From the NCBI RefSeq assembly GCF_009189165.1, contig NZ_CP045118.1, positions 310,001-374,000 on the forward strand: 64,000 nt of DNA, read 5' to 3'. This stretch comes from Pseudomonas sp. SCB32 (lineage in GTDB: Bacteria > Pseudomonadota > Gammaproteobacteria > Pseudomonadales > Pseudomonadaceae). A model generated the notes under the pieces. The model searched no databases. It saw only the letters and a list, made by a program, of their open reading frames with translations, and had not been told where the DNA came from. Position 1 is the stretch's first letter. Each line of letters opens with the position of its first letter. Of this stretch, positions 14,878-53,687 are shown piece after piece. Made by a program: the position numbers and the translations under genes.

Positions 14878-16140
<1,263 letters not shown>

Positions 16141-28949: not shown

Positions 28950-28980
28950 GAAAAAGCCCCGCTCATGCGGGGCTTTTTTG
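28950..28980 (+). terminator. Terminator of the amidase-malonate operon
   Basis: AAAAAGCCCCGC / GCGGGGCTTTTTT with a TCAT loop; symmetric, so bidirectional use is possible. Confidence 0.88.
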
Positions 28981-28985
28981 TCTTC

Positions 28986-29075
28986 GTAGGAGCGGAGCTT
29001 CTCCGCGAAATCAGCTCCTGCTGGAGATATTAGGTGCATCGGACTCGCGTAGGAGTGGACTTCGTCCGCGATGTG
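28986..29075. repeat. Two REP-like units
   Basis: GTAGGAGCGGAGCTTCTCCG at 28986 and GTAGGAGTGGACTTCGTCCG at 29051, same orientation. Confidence 0.7.
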
Positions 29076-29120
29076 TCTGCCTCGCGCCGGGCTTTCTCGC
29101 GTCGCGCCGGCGTGCGCGCT

Positions 29121-29393
29121 GACTTCTTGTTTCGCCCCCTCGGGCGAGTCACTTCTTCCAAACCAAACGCCGAAGAAGTAACCAAGAAGGCTTGCCCCGG
29201 ACATCCGGTTTTTCGCTTAGGCGAAAAATTCCCTCGTTAAAGCGCAGTTTCAGGGGCACGCCACGACGGGCCATCCCTGGCCCATCGTGGCTCTCGCGGC
29301 ATCCATGCCGCTCAACCCCTGAAACTGCGCTTCAACGAGGCCTCCTGAACGGGGCCGTTCGGAGTGCGTGGATGTTTCTCTGGAAATCTCTTT
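29121..29393. repeat. Structured intergenic element, copy 1
   Basis: Homologous to 53250-53504. It contains ordered stems: ACTTCTTC 29151-29158 with 29172-29179; TTTTTCGC 29209-29216 with 29221-29228; a 24-nt arm pair 29233-29256 with 29316-29339 (one mismatch); and inside it CCACGA and GGGCCA (29261-29273) with TGGCCC and TCGTGG (29278-29290), plus GGCATCCATGCC. Both copies begin TTTCGCCCCCTCGGGCGAGT. Confidence 0.8.
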
Positions 29394-29423
29394 AAAGCCA
29401 AAGCCAAAGCCAAAGCCAAAGCC
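29394..29423. repeat. Hexanucleotide tandem array (AAAGCC)x5
   Basis: Five exact AAAGCC units end copy 1 of the structured element. The other copy ends in AGAGCC units at the same place. Confidence 0.92.
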
Positions 29424-29440
29424 GCAGAAGTGGGGCTCTT

Positions 29441-29466
29441 CGTAGGAGCGAGCTTGCTCGCGAATC
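29441..29466. repeat. REP-like unit (GAGCTTGCTCG type)
   Basis: CGTAGGAGCGAGCTTGCTCG followed by CGAAT; nearly identical to the unit at 53081. Confidence 0.75.
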
Positions 29467-29489: not shown

Positions 29490-29520
29490 GAAAAAGCCCC
29501 GCTTGAGCGGGGCTTTTTCA
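29490..29520 (-). terminator. Terminator of the quinone oxidoreductase gene
   Basis: GAAAAAGCCCCGC / GCGGGGCTTTTTC around TTGA, near symmetric, just past the minus-strand gene's stop. Confidence 0.85.
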
Positions 29521-39781: not shown

Positions 39782-39792
39782 GGAAGGGTAAA

Positions 39793-39968
39793 GCTCCCCG
39801 GACATGCCGCTGTCGGGTTAGCCCTTGAACCCGAGAGTTCAAGGTGGCGGTTGCAGTAGGCTTTAAGGCTTTCCGTCGTGCGGACATGCACACCAGCCCA
39901 ACTGGCAACCTCCGTTGTTGCAATTATCGGCTCAGGGACATCACCGACTGGCAAACACACCAGGGAAC
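39793..39968 (-). ncRNA. ssrS: 6S RNA
   Basis: 176 nt on the minus strand between zapA and the cyclo-ligase gene, the standard location. It contains segments matching E. coli 6S: TGTCCCTGAGCCGATA, GAAAGCCTTAAA, CACCTTGAAC..GGGTTCAAGGG and GCGGCATGTCCG. The ends GTTCCC and GGGGAGC pair to close the molecule. 6S mimics an open promoter and holds sigma-70 RNA polymerase in stationary phase. Ends were set from the closing stem and promoter distance, so they may be off by a few bases. Confidence 0.93.
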
Positions 39969-39975
39969 GGGGTGG

Positions 39976-53080: not shown

Positions 53081-53163
53081 GTAGGAGCGAGCTTGCTCGC
53101 GAATCGTCCCAGCGGCGGGGTCGCCTGTAACCACGTTTCGTAGGAGCGGACTTTGTCCGTGAT
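53081..53163. repeat. Two REP-like units
   Basis: GTAGGAGCGAGCTTGCTCGC at 53081 and GTAGGAGCGGACTTTGTCCG at 53140, same orientation but different hairpin tips. Confidence 0.75.
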
Positions 53164-53249
53164 GCTCTTGTAGGGCGAATAACGCTCCAAGCGTTATCCG
53201 CCGACTTGACGTTCGGCGTTTCTGCGCCGCATCGGCGTGCTCGGATGTC

Positions 53250-53504
53250 TTCTGTTTCGCCCCCTCGGGCGAGTTACTTTGCCAAACGACGCAAAGTAAC
53301 CAAAGGTCTTGCCCCATCATCCGGCCCCGGCTTCGCCGGGGTTCCCTCCTTCCATCGAAGTTTCAGGGGCCCGCCGCGAAGGGCCATCCCTGGCCCATCG
53401 CGGCTCTCGCGGCATCCATGCCGCTCAACCCCTGAAACTCCGATTCCACTCGGCCTCCTGAAGGGGCGCTCCGGTGTGTGCGGATGTTTTTCTGGAAGTC
53501 TTAA
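53250..53504. repeat. Structured intergenic element, copy 2
   Basis: Homologous to 29121-29393. Stems: GTTACTTTGC 53273-53282 with 53291-53300; CCCCGGC 53325-53331 with 53335-53341; AGTTTCAGGGG 53359-53369 with 53429-53439; CCGCGA and GGGCCA (53374-53386) with TGGCCC and TCGCGG (53391-53403); GGCATCCATGCC inside. Confidence 0.8.
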
Positions 53505-53528
53505 AGAGCCAGAGCCAGAGCCAGAGCC
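53505..53528. repeat. Hexanucleotide tandem array (AGAGCC)x4
   Basis: Four exact AGAGCC units at the same point of the element where copy 1 has AAAGCC x5. Confidence 0.92.
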
Positions 53529-53550
53529 AGGGCGTGGCGTTCTAGCTCCC

Positions 53551-53687
53551 GTAGGAGCGGACCTTGTCCGCGAAATCCCACGCGGAGGCCCCGTTGCTAC
53601 AGGAGAACGTCAGGGTCTTGCGTCTCCGGTGGCGAACCTGGCTGATCTGCCGATGCATCGCGGGCAGGGCCTGCTCCTACAGGGAAG
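53551..53687. repeat. REP-like units before the DUF2388 genes
   Basis: GTAGGAGCGGACCTTGTCCG at 53551 and an inverted GCCTGCTCCTAC ending near 53682. Confidence 0.65.

Follow-up and report, generated by a model that had tools for sequence, protein, structure and literature searches.

The window analysed here, a stretch of 64,000 nt from Pseudomonas sp. SCB32, contains two related intergenic elements of 368 bases (copy 1) and 343 bases (copy 2, downstream of gcvP). An earlier note had described two structured copies that share strings and stem pairs and align end to end; both elements lie at the positions it gave, the quoted strings and pairs are present in the sequence, and the alignment has a mean column identity of 84% over 403 columns, flanks counted. 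Both copies match the Rfam family RF01731 (TwoAYGGAY) on the minus strand above its gathering score of 43, copy 1 with 58.7 bits and copy 2, just above that score, with 43.2 bits. What the earlier note overlooked is that the minus strand is the informative one, that two small hairpins carry ANGGA loops and that the element belongs to a known Rfam family present in high copy. The core architecture is a three-way junction, in which a long outer stem is joined to two hairpins with ANGGAX hexaloops; some copies of the element contain an extra hairpin array. The features are as follows (window coordinates).

29074–29441, minus strand: copy 1, whole element, flanked by two REPs; boundaries inferred from the REP starts and from other elements
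29225–29347, minus strand: copy 1 twin-hairpin core, Rfam RF01731 TwoAYGGAY, 58.7 bits
29315–29340, minus strand: copy 1 outer stem, 5′ arm, pairing with 29232–29257; from fold and covariation
29232–29257, minus strand: copy 1 outer stem, 3′ arm; from fold and covariation
29296–29311, minus strand: copy 1 hairpin A, GCGGC-AUGGAU-GCCGC, with the ANGGAX loop at 29301–29306
29260–29291, minus strand: copy 1 hairpin B, GCCACGA.GGGCC / GGCCC.UCGUGGC, with the ANGGAX loop AGGGAU at 29273–29278
29209–29228, minus strand: copy 1, hairpin called stem 2 in the earlier note, TTTTTCGC/GCGAAAAA
29151–29179, minus strand: copy 1, hairpin called stem 1 in the earlier note, ACTTCTTC/GAAGAAGT
29129–29148, minus strand: copy 1, hairpin of the conserved 3′ module, CTCGCCCGAGGGGGCGAAAC, the search probe that located 64 elements
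29394–29423, minus strand: copy 1, hexanucleotide repeat (GGCTTT)n at the RNA strand's 5′ end; from the sequence
29442–29463, plus strand: REP adjoining copy 1, GTAGGAGCGAGCTTGCTCGCGA, of the GTAG-REP class as described in PMC3733652
53204–53546, minus strand: copy 2, whole element, flanked by REPs; boundaries inferred
53330–53449, minus strand: copy 2 twin-hairpin core, RF01731, 43.2 bits
53409–53424, minus strand: copy 2 hairpin A, loop AUGGAU at 53414–53419
53373–53404, minus strand: copy 2 hairpin B, loop AGGGAU at 53386–53391
53153–53563, no strand: 411 bases missing at the same site in the relative G001, which has one REP where the host has REP-element-REP; from alignment

Mosaics of GTAG-headed repeats surround both elements (28990–29073, 29442–29463, 53081–53202 and 53551–53573), and the repeats near the elements are of differing kinds (GTAGGAGCGGA.. 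and GTAGGGCGAATAACGC.., with GTAGGATGGCGTAGAGCG.. farther to the left of copy 1). Between copy 1 and both of its neighbour genes, hairpins rich in GC and accompanied by runs of A and T can be seen by eye (28951–28979 and 29491–29518), neither of which is listed in the scan. A scan for promoters of the sigma-70-like type returned no site at copy 1 or copy 2. Two further RNAs were detected in the window: 6S/SsrS RNA (39791–39969, minus strand, 115.9 bits) and a Pseudomon-Rho leader (RF01720; 14720–14820, plus strand, 73.3 bits) shortly 5′ of the ORF at 14878–16140.

Folded as minus-strand RNA, the core of copy 1 reaches −91.3 kcal/mol (z −12.8) and that of copy 2 −70.9 kcal/mol (z −6.5), and in neither case was any of 200 shuffled sequences as stable. 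In the copy 1 fold, an outer stem of 26 pairs bears the hairpins GCGGC-AUGGAU-GCCGC and GGGCC-AGGGAU-GGCCC, drawn with the loop-closing A–U paired. We took this fold as the structure and determined covariation with a script of our own, modelled on the idea of R-scape, whose null keeps the substitutions of each column and scatters them across the tree. The alignment comprised 95 cores sharing less than 93% identity, of which 91 were used; in these, 17 of the 46 structure pairs show covariation at E < 0.05, compared with 0 of the 6857 remaining pairs. Significantly covarying pairs, which the earlier note had proposed to look for in many copies, are present beyond the two copies in the window, and their excess over the tree-aware null bears out its suggestion that the fold is maintained by selection. 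The tree-aware test covered the core, and stems 1 and 2 lie outside it. As the earlier note had proposed, both pair. Stem 1, with wobbles counted as pairs, is complete in 60 of the 64 genomic elements, and 15 distinct arm pairs occur; stem 2 is paired in 49 of 60. These figures are to be read in the light of a control for stem 1 that combined arms with copies carrying a different one: 20 shuffles produced 277 hits (an uncounted number of comparisons, at most 1,280), so that chance pairing of such short arms is fairly frequent.

The earlier note allowed for either RNA or cruciform DNA. We compared G·U with A·C in minus-strand cells at pairs that are Watson–Crick in at least half of the rows, leaving out L001, the source of the structure, and obtained 124 versus 16 for the outer stem, 21 versus 23 for hairpin B and 1 versus 0 for hairpin A. 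The signal is that of the outer stem, not of hairpin B, which on its own has no G·U excess; 10 of its 23 A·C cells belong to the loop column and 13 remain without it. Counted as events on the tree, 83 changes from Watson–Crick to G·U face 21 to A·C (34 pairs, loop columns excluded; p = 7e-10). Because DNA hairpins would be expected to show no such preference, and because the elements are distributed 32 to 32 over the chromosome strands, a minus-strand RNA is the best reading of the fold; the RNA half of the earlier alternative is favoured and the cruciform half disfavoured. The core is a conserved three-way junction of RNA type with two ANGGAX hexaloop hairpins. Most Pseudomonas-type copies have tandem G·A/A·G mismatches in the outer stem (GA in 67 and AG in 71 of 86 rows lettered at the first site), and copy 1 itself has Watson–Crick pairs at these places. 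In the outer stem alignment, as many as three internal loops of purines (GA/AG, GGA/GGA) exchange with Watson–Crick pairs among the copies. Many Pseudomonas cores (L009 and L013, for instance) carry an extra AUGGAG in the 3′ arm of this stem, where a weaker third GGA hairpin would be possible if the stem opens.

The host genome contains 45 matches to RF01731 at E ≤ 0.001, 21 of them above gathering. We additionally searched with the 3′ module CTCGCCCGAGGGGGCGAAAC, which avoids finding merely those copies that the model favours; allowing up to one mismatch, it occurs at 64 places, 32 per strand, and its reversed control at none. The twin-hairpin core is kept in 52 of these elements and absent from 12 (54 cores were flagged initially, and two that are reverse complements of a neighbour were left out). 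Some of the core-less elements resemble the one at the copy 1 site of G011 (L091), where the core stem-loop is gone at a TGAA repeat and the remaining element is kept, as if the palindrome had slipped out. By a crude pattern without control, 50 of 53 cores have a CCTAC REP tail 60–190 nt upstream of their hairpin A, and a REP tail lies downstream of the module in 54 of 64 elements. According to our own simple ORF caller none of the 53 cores is inside a gene; 29 lie between convergent, 8 between tandem (sense), 9 between tandem (antisense) and 3 between divergent genes, and for 4 a neighbour in the flank was not called. The 8 sense and 9 antisense cores in tandem gene pairs indicate no bias towards being transcribed. 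The element is best explained as an intergenic repeat of mobile type, bounded by REPs, with a TwoAYGGAY RNA on the minus strand.

The two loops carry ANGGA in all 52 host-genome cores, which were located via the separate module with the loops left free. Loop A is AUGGAU in 51 cores, the remaining one having AAGGAU; loop B reads AGGGAU in 28, AUGGAU in 20, AGGGAC in 3 and ACGGAU in 1. The Pseudomonas-type rows considered next all required GGA in loop A. Selecting on hairpin A only, with GGA required there, we collected 255 unique Pseudomonas-type sequences, and loop B is A-N-GGA in 243 of them (237 ANGGAX on a perfect four-pair stem, 6 ANGGA with a mismatched stem), with G, T, A or C as the N. 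The other 12 comprise six with a five-base AGGAC loop B (from Atopomonas, P. oryzihabitans and P. rhizoryzae), three without hairpin B and three chance matches. These sequences were reduced to 123 representatives, of which 95 were aligned and 28 omitted by hand, including five with the AGGAC loop and several that lack hairpin B or match by chance; removal of L225 and L348:2980 (chance matches) and of L204 and L214 (large insertions) gave the final 91 rows. The loop B count of 91 of 91 in the alignment is therefore a selected one, and the fair counts are those of the 255 sequences and the 52 host cores. In the selected rows the N of loop B is G in 49, T in 34, A in 6 and C in 2. Loop A (AUGGAU) conforms to a literal AYGGAY, loop B is AGGGAU in both window copies, and T or C stands at that position in 36 of the 91 rows. 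Loop variation is almost limited to N and X.

NMR work on RsmE has defined its high-affinity site, a hexaloop ANGGAX seated directly on a stem, in which the N raises affinity irrespective of its identity (PMC4005645), and one dimer is able to bridge sites 10–63 nt apart (PMC4066749). The sequences have the corresponding features of a CsrA/RsmA-type site, ANGGAX directly on a stem, two per RNA and a spacing within 10–63 nt, the GGA motifs of the two hairpins in copy 1 being separated by 25 nt. A function is unassigned in RF01731, as the earlier note had said of the element; a hypothesis has, however, been published, since in 2014 Gardner and Eldai put forward sequestration of CsrA as the role of TwoAYGGAY (PMC4333381). 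The 2010 discovery paper, in the text available from it, lists TwoAYGGAY without a function and rates it as probably not cis-regulatory (PMC2864571). In Rfam, RF01731 is typed 'Cis-reg', and its clan also includes rsmX and RsmY.

The family is present in 18 of 24 same-genus relatives and was not found in the other 6 (strict filters, 40 candidates scored per genome), and it was found in 18 of 274 sampled Gammaproteobacteria, host counted. The copy 1 site contains the element in 3 of 12 genomes compared (G000, G003, G009) and the copy 2 site in 2 of 15 (G000, G003). A pattern scan of named genomes gave at least 120 stretches. Among the matches listed, 96 are titled Pseudomonas; the others include Stutzerimonas, Atopomonas, Azotobacter, Pantoea, Pectobacterium, Dickeya and Serratia, as well as Ctena symbionts, three gammaproteobacterial or Pseudomonadaceae stretches, two Lachnospiraceae genomes and one bacterial stretch that looks like chance. 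RF01731 was found in 13 of 16 pattern-scan genomes searched, several of them high-copy: P. nitroreducens 381H (42 copies), Pantoea Mb-10 (37), P. abietaniphila (36), and Lachnospiraceae RGIG8498 (29) and RGIG406 (24). P. putida 700447 gave 7 matches. No match was obtained in the Pectobacterium, Serratia and P. citronellolis genomes among these 16, and one in D. undicola. Hairpins of the form GCGRCANGGATGYCGCGAAAG with different second hairpins and flanks occur in Pectobacterium (L135, L160, L235), Dickeya (L143, L219) and Serratia (L157), and may represent another repeat family of enterobacteria with the same design. Carriage of the element by plasmids or phages was considered and rejected: the 72,556 plasmid records yielded one match (86% identity over 21% of the query) and the 50,697 phage records none. 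In a collection of viral contigs, the hairpin A pattern matched 15 stretches, 11 with a Pseudomonas-type core (two cut by the contig end), which may be host flanks, and 4 that look like chance.

In Lachnospiraceae, RF01731 is likewise a dispersed repeat with a layout like that in Pseudomonas, and its elements differ from the Pseudomonas type in stems and flanks. When 20 of their hairpins were read without a loop requirement, loop A was ANGGA in 20 of 20 and every hairpin B had a GGA loop, in one subtype the five-base AGGAU; copy L386 has the loop B AUGAAU, without GGA. Neighbours starting within 700 bp of each other in two Lachnospiraceae genomes are divergent in 16 cases, tandem in 1 and convergent in 0. 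The 11 pairs that were read whole (picked as pairs, some representing the same site in both genomes) each consist of one element of each subtype.

We determined whether the family occurs together with CsrA. Within Pseudomonas this is uninformative, since all 25 genomes have CsrA family matches, the host four. Among 250 Lachnospiraceae genomes, 39 contain RF01731 (strict filters) and 126 have CsrA above the cut-off; CsrA was found in 38 of the 39 genomes with RF01731 and in 88 of the 211 without it (Fisher p = 4e-12). For a recA tree we chose 60 genomes by hand (24 with RF01731, 18 without CsrA, 18 with CsrA only), one of which had no RecA match. On the tree of the remaining 59, RF01731 requires 18 steps (18.9 on average when labels are shuffled), and its carriers are intermixed with genomes lacking CsrA; because RF01731 is so scattered, shared ancestry is a poor explanation of the link to CsrA. 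No CsrA match was found in G239, an RF01731 genome with a 1.6 Mb assembly, or in G061 (RGIG406, 24 RF01731 copies), which is metagenome-assembled and outside the 250. Given the nature of the two assemblies csrA may just be missing from them, and incompleteness of genomes could also inflate the association in Lachnospiraceae.

Since RNA of the repeat copies would fold into two hairpins with loops of the RsmA/CsrA type, the host genome may hold dozens of scattered RsmA docking sites. We consider it probable, with appreciable doubt, that the elements are a mobile-type repeat which, when transcribed, acts as a distributed RsmA/CsrA docking site or decoy. In such a mechanism, (i) the element would spread or be exchanged within REP-bounded DNA, (ii) RNA polymerase moving in the minus direction would cross it, by read-through from a neighbour gene or from a promoter of unrecognised kind, (iii) the twin hairpins, with 25 nt between their GGA motifs on a stiff stem, would form a bridged site that clamps one RsmA/CsrA dimer, and (iv) dozens of copies might compete with mRNAs for RsmA, as RsmY and RsmZ do from single loci. 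The benefit could fall either to the host, as buffering of RsmA, or to the repeat, as RNA stability, tolerance or mobility via a host protein. The step from site to function is one that we infer, because no promoter was found, cores show no sense bias and 12 of the 64 elements are core-less. Also against it count the GC-rich hairpins between copy 1 and its neighbour genes, the 6 of 24 relatives without an RF01731 hit although all 24 carry the CsrA family, the two RF01731 genomes with no CsrA match, the missing G·U excess in hairpin B and the loop B of L386. A broader proposal, to which we attach a good deal less confidence, is that TwoAYGGAY, rather than being an sRNA gene, is a mobile-type repeat interspersed in genomes of Gammaproteobacteria and gut Lachnospiraceae, that it survives chiefly in hosts possessing CsrA/RsmA, and that its copies, often in divergent pairs of two subtypes, either constitute a genome-wide sponge or use the regulator as a host factor for spread.

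The main rival, which we regard as unlikely, is a role in mobility at the DNA level: a selfish element whose cruciform or single-strand hairpins a transposase, of REP type (RAYT) or another kind, would read, with ANGGA loops as transposase contacts and transcription irrelevant. Several observations on the arrangement of the elements agree with it. REP tails lie upstream of most cores and downstream of most modules by the crude pattern described above. At the empty copy 2 site of G001, 411 bases are absent between direct REP copies, and the long flanking blocks are 86% identical. Of the neighbours less than 1.2 kb apart in G000, 11 of 12 are divergent and 1 is tandem, and all 11 divergent pairs combine an A-type with a B-type core (typed by flanking arms; 39 A-type, 14 B-type). 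Finally, at one Lachnospiraceae locus (L382:1471–3174, in G061) an Rpn-like gene, a putative transposase (TIGR01784, 42 bits, below the cut-off of 52.1), lies between 223-nt inverted arms of 94% identity, each with a TwoAYGGAY RNA facing outward, which makes the locus a possible complete mobile unit. Arms also accompany Rpn-like genes at L402 (one arm) and L403 (gene fragments at a contig end and one arm). The Rpn-like gene was rejected as the transposase of the element, the other 12 loci examined being without RF01731, and is kept as a lead. Against a reading at the DNA level count the excess of G·U over A·C on one strand, which would not be expected of DNA, a loop that varies at precisely the N tolerated by RsmE, and the tie to CsrA presence in Lachnospiraceae.

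We give little credence to a purely structural role, in which a strong hairpin array would act as a spacer of convergent intergenic regions against read-through or exonucleases and be tolerated where it does least harm. By our own ORF calls the location of 29 of 53 cores between convergent genes and of none within genes agrees with such a spacer, as does the tail-repeat-tail bias of P. fluorescens repeats, which has been explained in this way (PMC2718517); the 9 tandem-antisense and 8 tandem-sense cores do not, and neither the conserved ANGGA loops nor the association with CsrA is predicted by it. A conventional single-locus sRNA of the RsmY/RsmZ kind that titrates Rsm proteins is very improbable: the Rfam clan shared with RsmY and two strong predicted sites per RNA would suit it, whereas 52 intact cores among 64 elements of one genome, the failure to find a sigma-70-like promoter at either copy and the differing occupancy of a site among close relatives argue against it. 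That the stems are a by-product of codons in a small coding sequence, an explanation the earlier note had asked to see checked, is scarcely credible and was rejected, for although a frame reading FQGLSGMDAARATMGQGWPVVACP terminates in the copy 1 outer stem, none of the six frames stays open throughout (at most 66 of 91 copies), and 10 of the 91 differ by 1 or 2 nt in the length between the hairpins.

The TwoAYGGAY sequence family and the proposed link to CsrA are already known. As far as the open-licence literature shows, it is new that the family is a dispersed repeat, bounded by REPs and present in dozens of copies, whose two subtypes are arranged divergently in two phyla; also new are the restriction of loop variation mainly to what RsmE tolerates, the assignment of the RNA strand and the co-occurrence with CsrA; in the open-licence PMC literature we found no description of TwoAYGGAY or its sequence as a dispersed repeat. 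TwoAYGGAY has had no assigned function since 2010, its link to CsrA being a motif match, and the loop rule, the strand asymmetry and the co-occurrence in Lachnospiraceae make the claim specific and testable. Should the elements be transcribed, existing tallies of RsmA/CsrA sites per cell fall short by dozens in many Pseudomonas, in a Pantoea and in many Lachnospiraceae, and pull-down analyses from which repeats are removed would overlook these sites. Use as a sponge or of a host factor, if true, would be a regulatory or parasitic strategy resting on an RNA-binding protein.

Candidates for such sites may exist in P. putida KT2440, for which Huertas-Rosales et al. performed RNA pull-down with RsmA, RsmE and RsmI (PMC7937890). 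Among the targets shared by the Rsm proteins they name a 'long palindromic region downstream PP_3547' as well as intergenic regions adjoining ISPpu8 copies (PMC7937890). Like the element, these regions are intergenic and repeated, one is termed palindromic, and all three Rsm proteins bind there; they are candidate TwoAYGGAY elements. RF01731 is present in another P. putida strain, 700447. If they are TwoAYGGAY, binding in vivo is already recorded.

In comparison with GTAG REPs and BIMEs, which are associated with RAYTs, the element is similarly high-copy, extragenic and palindromic, often in inverted pairs and bordered by REPs. REPs are 20–40 bp long and carry a GTAG tag (PMC3733652), whereas the element has roughly ten times that length, lacks its own GTAG tag and contains a conserved RNA core; an ordinary REP or BIME is ruled out by its size (343 and 368 bp) and the missing tag. 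The repeats R0–R200 of P. fluorescens are by their description, like the element, intergenic and structured with a tail-to-tail bias, R200 being 320 bp long with 47 copies in SBW25 (PMC2718517). With RsmX/RsmY/RsmZ and CsrB/CsrC the element shares ANGGA loops on stems, where binding of an RsmA/CsrA dimer would be expected by analogy. It differs from these RNAs in having two sites per RNA and dozens of dispersed copies instead of a single locus, and from RsmX/Y/Z also in promoter content, with 0 sigma-70-like sites at either copy where a promoter of its own would be looked for. To RF01731 itself the element corresponds in that both copies are above gathering, in the two GGA-loop hairpins of a three-way junction and, for most Pseudomonas-type copies, in the tandem G·A/A·G mismatches of the outer stem. 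Unlike RF01731 as presented in the published text available, the element is high-copy, REP-bounded and paired here, and its loop B is more commonly AGGGAU than AYGGAY.
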